Assembly (NCBI GenBank): GCA_013288015.1
Contig: JABDCR010000005.1
Coordinates: forward strand, 1-64,000
DNA length: 64,000 nt
From: Bacteroidota bacterium
Lineage (GTDB): Bacteria; Bacteroidota; Bacteroidia; B-17B0; Aurantibacillaceae
Direction of reading: 5' to 3'
Of this stretch, positions 282 through 63,888 are shown one piece after another. Both the position numbers and the translations under genes were made by a program. The stretch's first letter is position 1. Every line of letters begins with the position of its first letter. The notes under the pieces were generated by a model. That model did no database searches and had not been told where the DNA came from. It was given only the letters and a program-made list of their open reading frames with translations.

Positions 282-1754
282 GTGAAAAGATTTGCAGCCA
301 TATTTCTTATCGTTTTTTTTAATTCTTTATTTTTTTATGCGCAAAATAGAAAAATTGACTCCCTTTGGAAAGTATACAACAACAAAACTCAAGCTGATAC
401 TGCTCGCCTGATGGCTATATTTAAAATGGCCAATGGTTACCTAGACAATAATCCTGATTCGGCAATTCTGCTTGCGCAATATCAACTGCAACTCGCTCGT
501 AATACCAAACAAAAGCTCTTTGAAGGAAGGGCTCTTACCACAATGGGTATTGCCCAGTTAAACAAAAGTGATTACTTGGGAGCCATAGAATCGCAAACAA
601 AAGCCTTGAAAATATTCAGGGAAATCAATGATAAAAAAAGAATGGGAAATTGCTTGCAGAATCTTGGTAGTATTTATCTTGACCAGGCTAATTACACTAA
701 ATCACTCGAATATTCACTCGAAGCCTTAAAAATAAGAGAAGAAACAGGCGATAAAGAAGGGGAAGGTGATTGTTATACCAATATTGGTATCGTCTATAAA
801 GAACTGAATAACTTCCCAAAAGCTCTTGAATGTTATTTCAAAGCTTTACACATATTCGAAAAGACAGGTTACACGAATGGTATGGGGGATTGTTATAATA
901 ATATTGGAGTTGTATACCACCAACAATTTAATTACAAAAAAGCTCTTGAATACGCTTTTAAAGGATTAAAAATAAAACAGGAAAGCGGTAATAAATATGG
1001 AGTTGGAATTGGTTACGTCAATATTGCACTTGCCTATAAAGCCCAGGCTGATTATGCCAAGGCATTAATCTATTACAAAAAAAGTCTTGACGTGAAACGT
1101 GAGACTGGTGACAGATACGGAATTGGGATATGTTACCTTAATATGGCAACGCTCTATTATACATTATCAGATTACGGTCTATCCTTAGTTTACAGCGATT
1201 CTGCGTTGAAGGTCAGCAGGGAAATAGGTGATATAGATAGCGAGCGCTTATGTTATGGTAACCTGGCTTTAGTGTATGCAGGCAGAAAACACTATAAAGA
1301 AGCTTATGAATACAATGTAAAATATAAACAACTTACCGATAGCATTTTCAATGCCGATAATAGTAAACAACTTGGGGATATGAAAACCAAGTTTGAAGTA
1401 GAGAAGAAAGAGGCTGAACTAAAAATAAAATCGGATGCGGAACAGGAAAAATTAAAAGCCATTGCAAATGAAGAAAAGAAAAGGCAACTGGTTATTATTT
1501 TTGCAGTAGCAAGCGTTCTCTTAATAGTAGTTATTTTTTCTTTGTTTTTATTTAGACGCTTCCGCATAATTGAAAGACAAAAAACCATTATCGAAAAACA
1601 AAAGCAAAAGGTTGACGAAGCTTATGAGCAATTGCATGAAAAAAATAAAGAAGTGATGGACAGTATCCATTATGCCAAACGCATACAAACAGCTTTAATA
1701 ACCCCGGAAAAATATATTGAAAATAGTTTAAACCGTTTAAGGGGTAATTGTTAG
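282..1754 (+). CDS. TPR-repeat membrane protein lacking its usual output domain
   Basis: This 490-residue protein has an N-terminal signal peptide ending near FFYAQ. Seven to eight tetratricopeptide repeats of about 40 residues follow (roughly 85-370, each with a variant of the A-YYKKSLDVKRETGD pattern), then a charged coiled coil, one transmembrane helix (about 410-430, VIIFAVASVLLIVVIFSLFL) and a second coiled coil. In related Bacteroidota proteins the closing segment KEVMDSIHYAKRIQTALI leads into a SpoIIE-type phosphatase or a kinase domain. Here the protein stops about 25 residues later, so the output domain is missing. It could be a stand-alone sensor or a truncated remnant. The start is GTG; no better ATG is in frame near the signal peptide. 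Confidence 0.85.
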   Translation: MKRFAAIFLIVFFNSLFFYAQNRKIDSLWKVYNNKTQADTARLMAIFKMANGYLDNNPDSAILLAQYQLQLARNTKQKLFEGRALTTMGIAQLNKSDYLGAIESQTKALKIFREINDKKRMGNCLQNLGSIYLDQANYTKSLEYSLEALKIREETGDKEGEGDCYTNIGIVYKELNNFPKALECYFKALHIFEKTGYTNGMGDCYNNIGVVYHQQFNYKKALEYAFKGLKIKQESGNKYGVGIGYVNIALAYKAQADYAKALIYYKKSLDVKRETGDRYGIGICYLNMATLYYTLSDYGLSLVYSDSALKVSREIGDIDSERLCYGNLALVYAGRKHYKEAYEYNVKYKQLTDSIFNADNSKQLGDMKTKFEVEKKEAELKIKSDAEQEKLKAIANEEKKRQLVIIFAVASVLLIVVIFSLFLFRRFRIIERQKTIIEKQKQKVDEAYEQLHEKNKEVMDSIHYAKRIQTALITPEKYIENSLNRLRGNC

Positions 1755-54729: not shown

Positions 54730-57700
54730 TTATTTATAAAACCATATTCTCATCATTGATAATAATTGATCCATTTTCAAAGGTTTTGTAATATAATCTG
54801 ATGCTCCTGCTTCAATACATTTCTGACGGTCACCTTTCATTGCTTTTGCAGTTACAGCAATAATTGGCAGTGTATTGTTTTTGTGTTCTCTTCTTATTTT
54901 TTGCATGGTTTCATATCCATCCATTTCCGGCATCATAATATCCATTAAAACCATTTCTATGTCATTGGATTCATTCATCAAGTTTATAGCTTCTTTACCA
55001 CTTTCAGCAGTAATAACGTCAATGTTGTATCTTTCAAAAACAGTTGTAATGGCAAAAAGATTTCGTACATCGTCATCTACTACAAGGACTTTTTTTCCGG
55101 CTAAAATATCGTCTTTCATCCTGAACTTTTCCATAATCTTACGCTTCTCCAGTGGAAATTTCGCGTAATTTACGTGTAAAAACATCATCGTTTCCTCCAA
55201 CAATCTATCAAGTGAATTTACATCTTTCAAAACAATTCGGCTCGAAATTTTATTTAACTGAGATAGTTCACGTTTACTAAAATCTTTGGCAGAATAAATA
55301 ATTATTGGAACTAATGTAAGTTTATCATTGTTTATTTTTTTGATGAGATCTAACCCTGAAATATCCGGTAATGTATAATCCAAAATAATTGTATCAAACT
55401 CTTTACTGTTTATTAGCTGAAGGGCTTTTTCTCCTGTTGATGCAATTGTTATTTCAATATTTTCTTCTTTAAGCAGTTTTACAATTTGCGATGATTCTAA
55501 TTCATTGTCTTCAACAACTAATAATTGCTTTATTTCTCTTGAGTTAAAATCAATAATGTCAGAAAAAAGACTATCTAATTGTTCGTTACTTAAAGGTTTA
55601 AGTAAAAAACTACGTGCTCCACGCTGTAAAGCAAGTATTTTATTTTCTTCGCCCGATATTAAGTGGATAGGGATATGTCTGTAATTCAAATCATTTTTAA
55701 GTAAATCAAGTACTTTCCAACCACTTGTGTCGGGGAGCTTTACATCAAGTGTAATGGCAATTGGTTTAAAGCGTGCTACATAATTAAATATTTCAACATA
55801 GTTTGTTGCAATAATAACTTTGAGTCCGTCAACGTGTGCGCGGTCAATCATAATTCTTCCAAAGCGAGGATCATCTTCAATTACCAATACTATTTTATCG
55901 TTTGGTAAAATATTATTTCTATCATCACCTGTTTCGTTAATCATCTCATCAACCCCACTTAATTTTTTAATTTCGATGCCATCATCTGTCATCTTTAATG
56001 AATTAAGTATATCATCTAATTCCTTTTTTTCAGGTTTAAGTGATTCTGAACTTTGTGTGCTATCAAAATACGATGACTCGGCAATTTTATCTAAAGGAAG
56101 GAATAGGGTAAAGGTGCTTCCACGCCCGGCATCACTTTCTAATTCAATTGTTCCGCCAAGTAGCTCGGCTAAACCACGACTAATGGATAATCCTAAACCT
56201 GTTCCACCGTATTTACGACTGGTTGAACCTTCTGCTTGCTGAAACGCTTCAAAAATAATTGCCTGTTTATCTTGTGGAATACCGATACCTGTATCGATAA
56301 TAGAGAATGCAACTACTTTCTCTGCTTTATCAAGCGTAACGGTTCCCGGTTTCCAAGAATGATTAGCTTCGTAAATCTTTAATTTAACTTCTCCTTTTTC
56401 TGTAAATTTAAATGAATTTGAAAGTAGGTTTTTTAGAATTTGATTTAATCGCTGAGAGTCAGTATCTATTGATTGAGGCAGGGTAGGGTCCATCTCAATT
56501 TTAAATTTAAGATTCTTAGCTTCAGATAATGGTTTAAATGTTGTTTCAACAAATGTGGATATTTCAGAGAAATAAATAGTTGAAATGTTAGCAGAAATAA
56601 ATCCGGATTCAATTTTTGAAAGGTCAAGTATATCATTAATTAATTGCAATAAGTCATCACCACACGAGTGAATTGTTTTTGCATAGCGCGTTTGTTTATC
56701 ATTTAAGTTACCTTCTGCATTTTCATATAATTGTTGCGCAAGAATTAATAATGAGTTAAGCGGTGTACGTAACTCGTGTGACATATTTGCCAAGAACTCT
56801 GATTTATATTTAGACGTAAGGGTAAGCTGTTCTGCTTTTTCTTCTAATGAACGACGAGCTTCTTCCACCTCTTTGTTTTTCGCTTCCACCTCGTTTTTTT
56901 GTTTTACAAGCAATAGTGCTTTATCTTGTAATTCATCATTTGTTCGTTTTAGCTCTTCTTGTTGTGTTTTTAACTCACCTGCCAATGATTGCGATTGCTC
57001 AAGTAACTCTTCTGTACGTGTATTTGTTTCAATTGTGTTTACAACTATACCAATACTCTCTGTTAACTGGTTTAAAAAATCTAAGTGAGTTTGACTGAAT
57101 GTTTCGAGTGACCCTAATTCAATAACCGCCTTTACATTATTTTCAAATAATACAGGAAGTACAATTAAGTTGGCAGGTTTTGCTTTTCCAAGCCCCGAAG
57201 TAATTTTTATATAATCGTTAGGAACGCTTGAAAGTATAATTCTTTCTTTTTCAAAAGCACACTGCCCTACTAAGCCTTCGCCAATAGCAAATTCTTTTGG
57301 AACATGTTTGTCTGATTTATAGGCGTAAGATGCAAACAATTTTAATTTTGATTTTTCTTCTTCAGAAGATAGAATATAAAAGGCTCCGTAATGTGCTGTA
57401 ACCACCTGTGCTAATTCGGAAAGGATTCGCATAGCAACAGTATGTAAATCTTTTTGCCCTTGTAACATTTGTGTAAATTTTGCAAGGTTAGATTTTAGCC
57501 AATCTTGTTCTTGGTTTAATAAGGTTGTTTCACGAAGGTTAGTAATCATTTGGTTGATGGTATCTTTTAACTCTTCCACTTCACCTTTAGCATCTACACG
57601 AATGTTACGTGTTAAGTCGCCTTTTGTTACCGCCGATGCCACCTCAGAAATTGAACGTACCTGTGTTGTTAAATTTTGCGCAAGCTGGTTTACGTTCTCT

Positions 57701-60700
57701 GTTAAGTTTTTCCATATACCTGAGGCACCCGGTACACTTGCCTGGCCACCTAATCGTCCTTCAACACCCACCTCACGTGCCACGTTAGTTACCTGGTCGG
57801 CAAACACGGCAAGTGTTTCAATCATCTCGTTAATTGTATCTGTTAATTGTGCTACCTCTCCTTTTGCATTGATAGATAATTTTTGACGAAGGTCACCGGT
57901 TGCTACCGATGTTACAACTTTAGCAATACCACGTACTTGTGATGTTAAGTTAGATGCCATCATGTTTACCGAGTCAGAAAGATCTTTCCAGATACCCACA
58001 ACACCTTTTACTTCAGCTTGTCCACCCAATTTACCTTCGGTACCAACCTCACGTGCCACACGTGTTACCTCAAAAGCAAATGAGTTTAATTGCTCCACCA
58101 TTTTGTTAATAGTGTTCTTTAAATCAAAAATTTCACCTTTAACGTCAATGGATACTGTTTTAGATAAGTCACCACTTGCCACCGCTTTTGTTACTTCGGC
58201 AATGTTACGTACCTGTGCTGTTAAGTTACCCGTCATTTGGTTTACAGAGTCCGTTAAATCTTTCCATGTTCCTGCTACACCCGGTACAAAGGCTTGTCCG
58301 CCAAGCTTTCCATCTGTTCCCACCTCACGAGCCACACGTGTTACCTCCGATGCAAATCCGCGAAGCTGATCCACCATTGTGTTTAGTGTTTCTTTTAATT
58401 GTAAAATTTCTCCGCGTACGTCAACCGTAATTTTTTTAGATAAGTCACCATTCGCAACCGCAATTGCTACATCAGCAATGTTACGCACTTGTGTAGTTAA
58501 GTTACCTGCCATTTGGTTTACCGAGTCGGTCAAATCTTTCCACGTTCCTGCAACACCTGGTACGTGAGCTTGCCCACCTAGTTTACCTTCTGTTCCCACC
58601 TCACGAGCCACACGAGTTACCTCCGATGCAAATCCACGAAGCTGATCCACCATCGTGTTAATTGTATTTTTTAATTCTAATATTTCACCTTTAACATCCA
58701 CCGCAATTTTACGCGATAAGTCACCATTCGCAACCGCAGTTGTTACCTCTGCAATGTTACGTACCTGCGATGTTAAGTTAGATGCCATTTTATTTACCGA
58801 GTCAGTTAAATCTTTCCATGTTCCACCAACACCGGGTACATAGGCCTGACCACCTAACTGCCCTTCAGAACCTACCTCGCGCGCCACACGTGTTACCTCT
58901 GAACCGAATGAGTTCAGCTGATCCACCATGGTGTTAATTGTATTTTTTAATTCAAGTACTTCTCCTTTTACGTCCACCGTAATTTTACGCGATAAATCTC
59001 CTTTCGCCACAGCAGTTGTCACCTCTGCAATATTACGTACCTGTGCTGTTAAGTTAGCCCCCATCTGATTCACCGAGTCAGTTAAATCTTTCCATATACC
59101 ATCTACACCTTCTACCGTTGCTTGTCCACCCAGTTTACCTTCACTACCAACCTCACGCGCCACACGTGTTACCTCTGAACCAAAAGAGTTCAGCTGATCC
59201 ACCATCGTATTAATTGTATCTTTTAATTCTAATATCTCTCCTTTTACGTCCACCGTAATTTTACGCGATAAATCTCCTTTTGCCACGGCAGTTGTTACTT
59301 CGGCAATGTTACGTACCTGACCTGTTAAGTTACCGGCCATTTGGTTTACCGAGTCAGTCAAGTTTTTCCATGTTCCACCAACACCGGTCACTGTTGCTTG
59401 TCCGCCCAGTTTACCTTCTGTTCCAACCTCAAGTGCCACACGTGTTACCTCAGATGCAAATGAGTTAAGCTGATCCACCATTGTATTAATAGCGTCTTTT
59501 AATTCAAGAATTTCTCCTTTAACATCCACTGTAATTTTACGTGATAAATCTCCTTTTGCCACGGCAGTTGTTACATCGGCAATGTTACGCACCTGTGCCG
59601 TTAAATTTCCTGTCATCTGATTTACCGAGTCAGTCAAATCTTTCCATACACCATCCACACCTACAACCGTTGCTTGGCCACCTAACTTACCTTCGCTACC
59701 AACCTCACGCGCCACACGTGTTACCTCTGAACCGAATGAGTTCAGCTGATCCACCATGGTGTTAATTGTTCTTTTTAATTCAAGAATTTCTCCTTTAACG
59801 TCCACTGTAATTTTACGCGATAAATCTCCTTTTGCCACCGCAGTTGTTACTTCGGCAATATTACGTACCTGTGCCGTTAAGTTAGATCCCATCTGATTTA
59901 CAGAATCCGTTAAATCTTTCCAGATACCATCTACACCTTCCACCGTTGCTTGTCCACCCAGTTTACCTTCGCTACCAACCTCACGCGCCACACGTGTTAC
60001 CTCTGAACCAAAAGAGTTCAGCTGATCCACCATGGTGTTAATTGTTCTTTTTAATTCAAGAATTTCTCCCTTTACATCCACCGTAATTTTGCGCGATAAA
60101 TCTCCTTTTGCCACGGCAGTTGTTACTTCAGCAATGTTACGCACCTGTGATGTTAAGTTAGATCCCATCTGGTTTACCGAGTCGGTCAAATCTTTCCACA
60201 CACCGGCAACCCCTTTTACTTTTGCTTGCCCACCCAGTTTACCTTCGCTACCTACTTCACGTGCCACACGTGTTACCTCAGATGAAAATGAGTTAAGCTG
60301 ATCCACCATTGTATTGATGGTGTTTTTTAACTCTAAAATTTCTCCTTTAACGTCAACAGTAATTTTACGCGATAAATCTCCGTTAGCCACAGCAGTAGTT
60401 ACCTCTGCAATGTTACGTACCTGACCCGTTAAGTTACCGGCCATCTGATTTACCGAATCAGTCAAATCTTTCCATGTACCGGCAACACCTTTTACTTGCG
60501 CTTGTCCACCCAATTTACCTTCTGTTCCCACCTCAAGCGCCACACGCGTTACCTCAGATGAGAAAGAGTTAAGCTGATCCACCATCGTGTTAATAGTATT
60601 TTTCAGCTCTAAAATTTCTCCTTTTACATCCACCGTAATTTTTTTCGATAAATCTCCTTTAGCCACCGCAGTTGTTACATCAGCAATGTTACGTACCTGT

Positions 60701-61428
60701 GCCGTAAGGTTTACGGCCATTAAGTTTACCGAGTCGGTCAAATCTTTCCACACACCTGCCACACCTTTTACTTTTGCTTGCCCACCCAACTTACCTTCCG
60801 ATCCCACCTCACGTGATACACGCGTAACCTCCATGGTAAATAGATTTAACTGTTTTACCATATCATTCACCTCTTTGGCAATACGGGCAAATTCTCCTTG
60901 TAACGAATGATCTCCTGTTTCAATTGGAATTTGTTGTGAAAGATTTCCTTTTGCTACCGCAGAAATTACACGATCTATCTCTCTTACTGGGTAAACCAAA
61001 TCTGAAATAAGTGAATTAAGATCTTCAACACTATTTTTCCATTCGCCTTGCGCATATGGTAATGCAATGCGATGGTTTAATTTCCCTTCTTTACCAATTG
61101 TAATTCTTGCTCTCGAAAATTCTTTCACTAATTTTTTATTCATTGAAATAATTTCGTTCAATGTATCGCATATTTTTCCGCTTATGCCAACTTTATTGAT
61201 TGGCATTTTTGCATCAAAATTTCCGTTTTTAACTTCAGTAAGAATTGAGAGCAATTCATTTGCATCTAACAAATAGCCCCCATTATCTTGAAAAATAGTT
61301 TCTTTATTTAACGATTCTTCTATTGAAGCTTTTCCGTTTTTTGTTTTTTTTACACTAACTTGTGCATCAAGTATTTTAGCATCTGCAGAATAGGATGCGA
61401 TTTTTGTTTTTTTTAATCCCGTCGCCAT
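54730..61428 (-). CDS. Giant soluble hybrid histidine kinase: 12 poly-HAMP repeats, GAF, HisKA, HATPase, three REC domains
   Basis: 2232 residues and no transmembrane segment. Residues 219 to about 1305 hold twelve 92-residue units ([71 protein letters not shown]), each equivalent to a HAMP pair, after diverged HAMP-like sequence from about 60. Then come a GAF domain (about 1320-1480), a coiled coil, HisKA with His1551 ([14 protein letters not shown]), HATPase_c ([35 protein letters not shown]) and three receivers, the last with [11 protein letters not shown]. Fungal group III (Nik1/Os-1) osmosensing kinases use a comparable but shorter HAMP array. A role in osmotic or internal sensing is inferred from this. 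Confidence 0.93.
57516..60774 (-). repeat. Twelve tandem 276-bp coding repeats (HAMP pairs)
   Basis: Twelve 276-base units code the 92-residue HAMP pairs of the giant kinase. Central units are almost identical at the protein level while the outermost ones (first, eleventh, twelfth) have diverged, the pattern expected for an array that expands and contracts by recombination. Copy number may differ between strains. Confidence 0.85.
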
Positions 61429-61570: not shown

Positions 61571-61696
61571 ATATTTGATTTTTTCAGATGAATTTACAAT
61601 TTAAGACTATAATGCTAATCATCTTTTTGACGATGAATAAGTTTGGGGATATTTAGTCTTAAAAAAAAGAATTAATAAAAAACTATTAAAATTAAT

Positions 61697-61722
61697 GGCT
61701 CAACTCTAATTAGTGACTGATA
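61697..61722 (+). repeat. IS left terminal inverted repeat
   Basis: 26 bases identical, on the opposite strand, to 63446-63471. The preceding 8 bases (61689-61696, AAATTAAT) are the target duplication. Confidence 0.95.
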
Positions 61723-61856
61723 AAATTAAAGATAGCAATATTTTTAAAGATATTTATCATAAACACATCTATTTCATATGCAATATTCTAATTTTTCAGG
61801 AAGTAATAATTGTAGTATAATTAAAAATACTACCTTGGCAGGATACAACCCAATTT

Positions 61857-62264
61857 ATGCCCATTTTAACGAGCAGATTTACAGAGATTCGTCCGGCAAT
61901 AAATGGAAGTGTTTATCATCAGGGCATACTACTGGAAGCAACAGTGCGTATGTTAATAGATACTGGTGCAGGGAAGACGGCCATATCTCACAAACTTTTC
62001 CTGGATAATAATATAACACCTTTGAGACTTGGGACAACAAGAACTCCTTATAAAAAAAGAGCCAAAACCGCAATTTATCAAAATGTTAGAATTGTTTTAC
62101 GTGATGATGCTGGAATAACATTCGAATTAATATTTTCAGAAATTGAATCTATAATAGGCAGCACTTATGATTTCCCTGTTATTTTAGGAATGGATGTTTT
62201 GGATTTAGGAAAATTTACTCTTTGGGGAAGAGATAATAAGAGATTTACTCTTGTTTTACCTTAG
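61857..62264 (+). CDS. Retropepsin-like aspartic protease, IS passenger gene
   Basis: 135 residues, the size of a single retropepsin (clan AA) monomer. The catalytic motif is LIDTGAGKTAIS (Asp35-Thr-Gly-Ala), with a preceding strand HQGILLEATVRM and the second hydrophobic Gly motif FPVILGMDVLDLG near residue 110. Such proteases act as homodimers. It has no signal peptide or membrane segment, so it would be cytosolic. It lies tail-to-tail with the transposase gene, 8 bases apart, inside the IS. The overlapping 76-codon frame from 61778 is a shadow. What it cleaves is unknown. Confidence 0.85.
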   Translation: MPILTSRFTEIRPAINGSVYHQGILLEATVRMLIDTGAGKTAISHKLFLDNNITPLRLGTTRTPYKKRAKTAIYQNVRIVLRDDAGITFELIFSEIESIIGSTYDFPVILGMDVLDLGKFTLWGRDNKRFTLVLP

Positions 62265-62272
62265 AAATTACT

Positions 62273-63367
62273 TTACGCGGCCATTTTATTCGCGTAATAA
62301 TGGTGTTTGCAATCTCCATGATTTGTTCTGCCGTTATTCTTTAAGAACCGGATAAAACTTAATTCGGATTGTCTGTACAATTCAATTCCAAACTTGTCTT
62401 TGGCAATGGTATCACAAATTTCATCTGTTACATTAAATTTCAATTCATCTTTCTTATGCATCTGAAGTTTGCTTTCGTGTATAAATTGGTACCACTTGAT
62501 ATAATGCTCTAAATACTTTGTAGATACACCTCTCATGTGCTCATTAACAAAATACTTAAATCCCCTGATTAAGGAGTTTGCTGTTTGGTTGTGGACTTCT
62601 TTATTCAAAAAACTTATGTGGTTTTTTCCAATGAATGTTTGATGCTCGATGTTATTGGCTTTGAAAAAAGACTTGTAAGTTACGTGGGCATCGCTGAAAA
62701 CAGATATGTCTTTGAATTTATCTTTGATAAAATAGTTTTCCATATCCTTTCTTGATGTTCTGCCGGTATGTGATTGGTGAACATCCAATTTCTTACTTTT
62801 ACGTCCAGACGAAAAAAATACTTTTACATTGTAAGGCGAATCTCCAACTTGTTTTTTTCTCCAAGCCCTGTAAACGGCCGGGTCTTCGATACCCATATTC
62901 CTTCTTCCTTTTCTTGAAAGCCGGAGCCAGGTTTCATCAAATTCAATAGCTTCTTCTGTAAAGGTGATATTTGTTTTTGGAGCAATAGCTGAAAGTAATT
63001 TTTGTCTCCAGTTAAAGGCAGTCTGTTCGCTTATACATAATTTCTTGCTCATTGCCTTAAGTGAAGGTATATTCAACGAAGTAAAGTCATCCACGAATTC
63101 ATTCCACTTGTTTAATTTCTGTACTTTAGAAAGTACGGTATTGGTTTTATAATTGAAGTTTTTCTTGCAGTCTTTACAAATGTATTTCTGTATTCCTTTT
63201 CTTGTTCCGTTTTTAACGATATAGTCTGAGTGACACTCTGGACAAGCTTTGACATTAATAGAATACTCATCAAAAACACTATAACTGCTTTTGATGTAAT
63301 CTATCAGTTCTTTTTTATCACTGATAGATAAATGCTTTATTCCTTTCTTTATTATCCTTAAACTCAT
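62273..63367 (-). CDS. IS1595-family (ISXO2-like) transposase
   Basis: 364 residues. An N-terminal zinc ribbon (ACPECHSDYIVKNGTRKGIQ, KYICKDCKKNF; four Cys) and a helix-turn-helix (LKAMSKKLCISEQTAFNWRQ) are followed by a DDE-type catalytic core: Asp in AIEFDETWLRL, Asp in VFSDAHVTYKSF, and the NQTANSLIRGFKYFVNEHMR segment holding the third acidic/Asn position. HYIKWYQF marks the ISXO2-like end. The frame is intact, and its ends lie within perfect inverted repeats, so the element may be active. Confidence 0.93.
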   Translation of the reverse strand: MSLRIIKKGIKHLSISDKKELIDYIKSSYSVFDEYSINVKACPECHSDYIVKNGTRKGIQKYICKDCKKNFNYKTNTVLSKVQKLNKWNEFVDDFTSLNIPSLKAMSKKLCISEQTAFNWRQKLLSAIAPKTNITFTEEAIEFDETWLRLSRKGRRNMGIEDPAVYRAWRKKQVGDSPYNVKVFFSSGRKSKKLDVHQSHTGRTSRKDMENYFIKDKFKDISVFSDAHVTYKSFFKANNIEHQTFIGKNHISFLNKEVHNQTANSLIRGFKYFVNEHMRGVSTKYLEHYIKWYQFIHESKLQMHKKDELKFNVTDEICDTIAKDKFGIELYRQSELSFIRFLKNNGRTNHGDCKHHYYANKMAA

Positions 63368-63445
63368 TCTGGACTTTATACATTAAACGTACAAAGACCG
63401 AAATTTGTTACAGATTTTCCGTTATTTTTGGGGTTTTGAGTGAAA

Positions 63446-63471
63446 TATCAGTCACTAATTAGAGTTGAGCC
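63446..63471 (-). repeat. IS right terminal inverted repeat
   Basis: Reverse complement of the left repeat over all 26 bases. The next 8 bases (63472-63479) repeat AAATTAAT and include the stop codon of the response regulator gene. Confidence 0.95.
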
Positions 63472-63474
63472 AAA

Positions 63475-63888
63475 TTAATTTGATTTGCCAGTAGTAGTCG
63501 AAATAATTTGAGAAAGTATTTCAACAAGTTTTTTAATGGTGTAAGGCTTTGTTATAAAACCAGTTGCTCCCATATTAAGCAATTCTAATTTGTCTCTGTC
63601 AGATGAAGAAGTGGTATAAATATATATTGGAATGTTTTGCAAACGCACAATTTTTCGCATTTCAATTAAACACTCCTTTCCACTAACACGAGGCATATTT
63701 AAATCTAAAAAAATAAAATTAGGAATAAAATTTCCGTTATTTTCAATAAAATCTAATGCTTCAGCACCATCTTTTGCTGTTGTATATTTGATGGAAGAAT
63801 CAATGTCTTTCAGGGCTAAAGTAAAAATTTCCCGATCGTCGATGTCATCATCAATTAGAAAAAATGAAATCTCTGGTTGCATAAACAA
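63475..63888 (-). CDS. Single-domain response regulator, paralogue of the one at 23041
   Basis: 137 residues, one receiver domain: DDDIDD acidic cluster, Asp62 in FIFLDLNMPRVSG, TTSSSDRDK switch region and the conserved Lys in FITKPYT. Close similarity to the 23041 protein over the whole length indicates a duplication. It lies upstream of the giant kinase gene on the same strand, separated by the inserted IS, whose target duplication covers its TAA. It may have been co-transcribed with the kinase cluster before the insertion. 63889-64000 shows only AT-rich sequence. Confidence 0.92.
   Translation of the reverse strand: MFMQPEISFFLIDDDIDDREIFTLALKDIDSSIKYTTAKDGAEALDFIENNGNFIPNFIFLDLNMPRVSGKECLIEMRKIVRLQNIPIYIYTTSSSDRDKLELLNMGATGFITKPYTIKKLVEILSQIISTTTGKSN

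Follow-up and report, generated by a model that had tools for sequence, protein, structure and literature searches.

Most of what is known of retropepsins comes from retroviruses and retrotransposons, in which these enzymes process the proteins of the element. Bacterial retropepsin-like proteases have also been characterized, namely APRc (PMC4140852), RimB (PMC11957791), and the Pseudomonas aeruginosa enzymes (PMC12239564). As for mobile elements, insertion sequences (IS) of the IS1595 family are distinguished by 8-bp duplications, an N-terminal zinc finger, and a conserved catalytic domain, the zinc ribbon being present in every group except IS1016 (PMC8101967). IS that carry passenger genes with no part in transposition form an established class, the transporter IS, which was defined on this family (Siguier, Gagnevin and Chandler, 2009, as cited in PMC3129680); in ISSag10, the passenger lnuC lies directly downstream of the transposase. 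The original prediction, made from the DNA alone, likewise took passenger genes to be known in IS1595 relatives. Passenger-bearing IS and bacterial retropepsins are both known, and what is new here is a retropepsin as IS cargo: a search of the open-access literature found neither an aspartic protease described in the role of IS passenger nor a bacterial retropepsin linked with transposons.

The window analyzed, a stretch of 64,000 nucleotides from a Bacteroidota bacterium, contains a complete IS1595-family element of 1775 bp (61697-63471). The perfect 26-base inverted ends and the 8-base target duplication that had been claimed for it were both recovered (Table 1); the automated repeat call is 27 nt, since one flanking base pairs too, and we count the inverted ends as 26. 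Such an end pair with an 8-bp duplication around a transposase excludes chance. The protease gene lies within the ends and the duplication encloses the whole unit, transposase and protease; hence, the retropepsin is cargo of the element, as had been proposed, and not a resident gene around which the two ends inserted independently.

Table 1. Coordinates of the element, its genes, and its insertion site in the window (TSD, target site duplication).
Feature	Position	Strand	Details
Left TSD copy	61689..61696	.	8-bp target site duplication AAATTAAT
Left terminal inverted repeat	61697..61722	+	GGCTCAACTCTAATTAGTGACTGATA; matches right end 26/26
Retropepsin-like aspartic protease	61857..62264	+	135 aa, intact; convergent with transposase
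Catalytic Asp-Thr-Gly codons	61959..61967	+	D35, T36, G37; invariant in alignment with three homologues
Gly-Met-Asp of second conserved motif VILGMD	62187..62195	+	G111, M112, D113; alignment with three homologues
Hairpin across convergent gene junction	62263..62318	.	inner stem TTACGCG/CGCGTAA, 62273-62297
IS1595-family transposase	62273..63367	-	364 aa; D144, D226, N264, K271; zinc ribbon C42, C45, C64, C67
Right terminal inverted repeat	63446..63471	-	26/26 identity to left end
Right TSD copy	63472..63479	.	AAATTAAT; includes response regulator gene stop codon

The element is inserted between the genes for a response regulator and for a 2232-aa histidine kinase, and because the stop codon of the regulator gene falls within the duplicated 8 bp, neither flanking gene was broken. 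The kinase (54730-61428, minus strand) is of the hybrid type and contains a long series of near-identical HAMP-like repeats. The element is present in a single copy in its genome (the assembly is 58% complete); no empty site was found, the response regulator flank being without an orthologous neighborhood in the sampled relatives. Within the element, the stop codons of protease and transposase are 9 bp apart, tail to tail, and the hairpin spanning this junction may serve as a bidirectional transcription terminator.

The transposase scores 89.9 bits against the NCBIfam IS1595 model NF033547 (curated cut-off 75) and its zinc ribbon 46.9 bits against NF050000 (cut-off 28), the four cysteines being invariant in the alignment. 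When aligned with ISSag10, ISMsa1, and DDE-type members, D144, D226, N264, and K271 occupy the catalytic columns; Asn replaces the Glu of the DDE-type members (D-D-N-K), as it does in ISSag10 and ISMsa1. With the score above the NCBIfam cut-off and both the catalytic residues and the zinc ribbon intact, the earlier assignment to an IS1595-type transposase gene stands. The protein falls under the gathering score of Pfam DDE_Tnp_IS1595 (17.5 vs. 27 bits), but the 67%-identical transposase of a relative (L039, see below) passes it with 27.8 bits, and the window transposase is therefore best read as a divergent member of the family rather than a non-member. The nearest named elements, ISSag10, ISCco2, and ISMsa1, belong to zinc-ribbon transposase groups and are 27–28% identical to it. 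In addition to the NCBIfam match, the zinc ribbon, and the 8-bp duplication, the element shares with the family its terminal GG, and it resembles transporter IS in having a passenger gene within the terminal repeats and sibling elements that bear other genes. It differs from ISSag10 in that the passenger is a retropepsin and is encoded on the opposite strand.

The passenger had been described as an intact 135-residue protein with the retropepsin motif LIDTGAG, and this description is upheld: the reading frame is open and contains both LIDTGAG and VILGMD, and a profile built from 29 other bacterial retropepsins, the window protease left out, matches it with alignment of both motifs (E 1.6e-11). 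Its scores are just below the Pfam cut-offs for gag-asp_proteas (PF13975, 25.7 vs. 28.2 bits) and Asp_protease_2 (PF13650, 23.6 vs. 24.3 bits). Codon usage agrees with that of the host in the protease frame and in no other frame of the same stretch; a single-sequence structure prediction gave a pLDDT of 34. A 76-aa ORF (61778-62008) that mostly overlaps the protease in another frame has no Pfam match and was treated as non-coding, though its short upstream part scores coding-like, and a phmmer match to PCNA (3k4x, E 2e-4) contained no significant stretch and was taken as chance. In its single-domain size and its one DTG and one hydrophobic-hydrophobic-G-x-D motif, the protein is similar to bacterial retropepsins of PF13975/PF13650. 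Unlike the characterized ones, it resides on a transposable element, is below the Pfam cut-off, and has neither a membrane anchor nor a signal peptide that could be seen. A clear signal peptide is absent from three of the four element-borne retropepsins, and the protease would be a soluble, cytoplasmic homodimeric aspartic protease.

Four relatives of the window transposase were identified at 50–67% identity (L039, L121, L122, and L047), three of them as part of bounded elements flanked by 8-bp duplications. When about 85,000 genomes were scanned for peptide patterns of the transposase, a single close relative emerged, L039 (67% identity), so the window element is rare; L121 and L122 came from a broader transposase profile search that was blind to the protease. 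Searches of plasmids, phages, and viral contigs added no further copy besides L121. The ends of all four bounded elements, the window element included, begin with GGYTCWA, and all duplications are 8 bp long and A+T-rich. L039 (2247 bp, duplication AAAATGTT) has the same type of ends, and its cargo consists of ParB-like and HAD_SAK_2 genes with no protease. In L121 (6382 bp, duplication AATAATAT, transposase 52% identical to that of the window), a 169-aa retropepsin is located 5 bp tail-to-tail from the transposase, along with several lipoprotein-like and membrane ORFs. In L122 (G531; 2722 bp, duplication AATAAGTT, transposase 55% identical), the far end is occupied by a retropepsin-like gene of 190 aa that is convergent with the transposase, and a HigB-type toxin and an HTH antitoxin are situated between them (L122:4027-4820). 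This protease has no Pfam match; the retropepsin profile detects it (E 3e-6), and its LIDTGAG and FIIGWDI motifs are at the expected positions.

Thus, the retropepsin is convergent with the transposase in two of the three further bounded elements, or three of four counting the window, and the initial reading from L039 alone, that the protease is a one-off, was overturned by L121 and L122; the same IS does not occur elsewhere always without the protease. There is a cargo slot beyond the transposase 3′ end whose contents differ between relatives, an opposite-strand retropepsin being the most frequent. In its structure, the element is a genuine cargo-carrying ("transporter") IS, and the retropepsin is a new recurrent type of cargo.

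Several observations on related loci were made in passing. At L047 (G481:C2, 4065-6829), the 50%-identical IS1595 transposase is tail-to-tail with a gene weakly similar to proteasome subunits (Ntn hydrolase); a right-end-like sequence is present there, the left end was not found, and this neighbor was not counted as cargo. The L121 element (also L127) is in an IMG/VR contig, with neighboring ORFs that, read by eye, appear phage-like (dUTPase-like, thymidylate-synthase-like). Among other IS1595 loci, the 3′ end of a conserved membrane-like ORF (175–177 aa) overlaps the transposase start at L031:475-2557 and L024:896-2397; L031 has ends of 26 bp, and its 8-bp duplication is GATAATAA. The gene directly after the transposase encodes a DNA methylase–HNH nuclease fusion at L010:1321-3620 and an Eco57I-like methylase at L011:1429-3306.

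A second case was found in the genome of the host itself. Contig C36 (L129; G000:C36:1-10000) starts within a DDE-type IS1595 transposase (PF12762, 82 bits), and a 193-aa retropepsin (650-1231, minus strand; PF13975, 33 bits) is located 2 bp tail-to-tail from the transposase stop, with ribosomal-protein-like genes adjoining the pair. The transposase is cut by the contig edge and the ends are unreadable, and the locus was therefore excluded from the bounded elements.

With two of the three further bounded elements and one independent DDE-type transposase (L129), the protease co-occurs with the transposase above chance, a check proposed together with the original prediction. The background is 38 retropepsin profile matches in 395 genomes of the phylum, a frequency that we estimate at about 3e-5 per gene. 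If it is set generously at 1e-3, the probability of finding two retropepsins among the approximately 12 cargo genes of two elements is still, by our arithmetic, on the order of 1e-5. As a control, no retropepsin was present at some 21 further IS1595 loci of more distant relationship with several kb of flank. The association looks like a repeated partnership. Moreover, the DTG and hydrophobic-hydrophobic-G-x-D motifs are intact in every element-borne protease despite almost no overall similarity, which implies selection on activity.

On balance, we think it somewhat more likely than not that this is a transporter IS with interchangeable cargo, in which repeated capture or replacement supplied the protease and an effect outside transposition maintains it. 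The DDN-K transposase would, as known for the family, recognize the 26-bp ends and insert the element in A+T-rich DNA, copying 8 bp. The protease may have been captured or replaced on several occasions and would be retained for its action on a cellular or invading protein, providing a stability, defense, or fitness trait; in this it would serve as the toxin-antitoxin cargo of L122 does, and not the chemistry of transposition. One argument is the contrast in divergence, the proteases of these elements being far more diverged than their transposases (50–67% identity to that of the window). Neither the L121 nor the L122 protease is among the best 12 matches of the window protease (E up to 0.0037), and these two score just 6.9 bits against each other. 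Each element-borne protease is better matched by non-element homologues or by L129 than by the copy of another element. A matched pair of protease and transposase should diverge together, and the contrast thus appears to favor repeated capture or replacement, with a role outside transposition, over a co-evolved transposase-processing enzyme, and speaks against a dedicated role of this kind, one of the functions that the original prediction offered next to action on a host factor and a stability trait for the host. In the protease tree, the element-borne copies are not grouped; long branches weaken this tree, and constraining the three element-borne proteases to one clade gives an AU p of 0.236 and is not rejected, so a single ancestral protease with very fast evolution may have been their source. 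Four bounded elements are known in all. Neutral cargo would predict less specificity than is seen in the repeated occurrence of one fold on one strand, in one case (L129) next to a transposase of a different IS1595 subgroup.

Another reading is a functional partnership of IS1595-family transposons with retropepsin-like proteases, in which the protease convergent with the transposase would act as its dedicated accessory, rapidly evolving in specificity, and would either control it or remove a block to transposition set by the host or a competitor; we regard this as doubtful. A rival reading, in which the protease regulates transposition by cleaving the transposase or an inhibitor, thereby limiting or triggering jumping, and is ancestral in the IS subgroup and lost in L039, is unlikely in our estimate. 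The recurrent convergent placement at 5–9 bp from the transposase stop (window and L121), or 2 bp (L129), the presence of a protease in three of four bounded elements, and the compatibility of the data with a single protease clade are all consistent with it, but a co-adapted pair should diverge jointly, and L039 retains intact ends and a duplication without any protease.

The closest homologues of the window protease in the 395 genomes are 23–29% identical. Among the 12 strong homologues outside the elements, 11 have a small gene weakly related to DUF5678 directly upstream, as do two more remote ones, with a short overlap or spacing of the kind seen in many two-gene modules. This DUF5678-like/retropepsin module, found at L076-L087, L094, and L103 in Bacteroidota genomes, is possibly an undescribed system, and it holds the closest homologues of the window protease (21–27 bits by phmmer), whereas the partner gene is missing from the element. 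At L071:5877-6437, the protease of such a module bears a C-terminal SEC-C metal-binding motif (PF02810). The partner is likewise absent from L121, L122, and L129, as expected if single genes were captured, and it was not detected in the window's genome (58% complete). Upstream of the window protease, one frame looked by eye like a remnant of the C-terminal part of the DUF5678-like protein; a profile search gave nothing, and this reading was dropped.

The conserved upstream gene, the toxin-antitoxin pair of L122, and the methylase-like or phd/relE-like ORFs that, read by eye, adjoin some chromosomal homologues would fit an addiction, anti-phage, or competition module in which a toxin-like protease is held in check by the DUF5678-like partner in chromosomes and is partnerless here. 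However, an unguarded toxin is unlikely unless regulated in some other way, and no PADLOC match to a known defense protein rose above noise; we consider such a module distinctly improbable. Finally, a neutral accident, in which a passing gene was trapped once between the ends and has no function for element or host, agrees with the single copy in the window's genome and with the scan of some 85,000 genomes, which gave a single close relative, but is very improbable given the recurrence at L121, L122, and L129, the rarity of retropepsins in the background, and the catalytic motifs kept everywhere.

A recurrent link of free-standing bacterial retropepsins with a DDE/DDN family of DNA transposons would show a route by which these proteases spread among bacteria. 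The exchange of protease, toxin-antitoxin, and ParB-like/HAD genes in the same slot amounts to gene exchange within very small elements. The association also poses a testable question, namely, whether a DNA transposon uses the protease for itself or merely carries one; if the partnership is true, a protease of the retroviral type would serve a DNA transposon.
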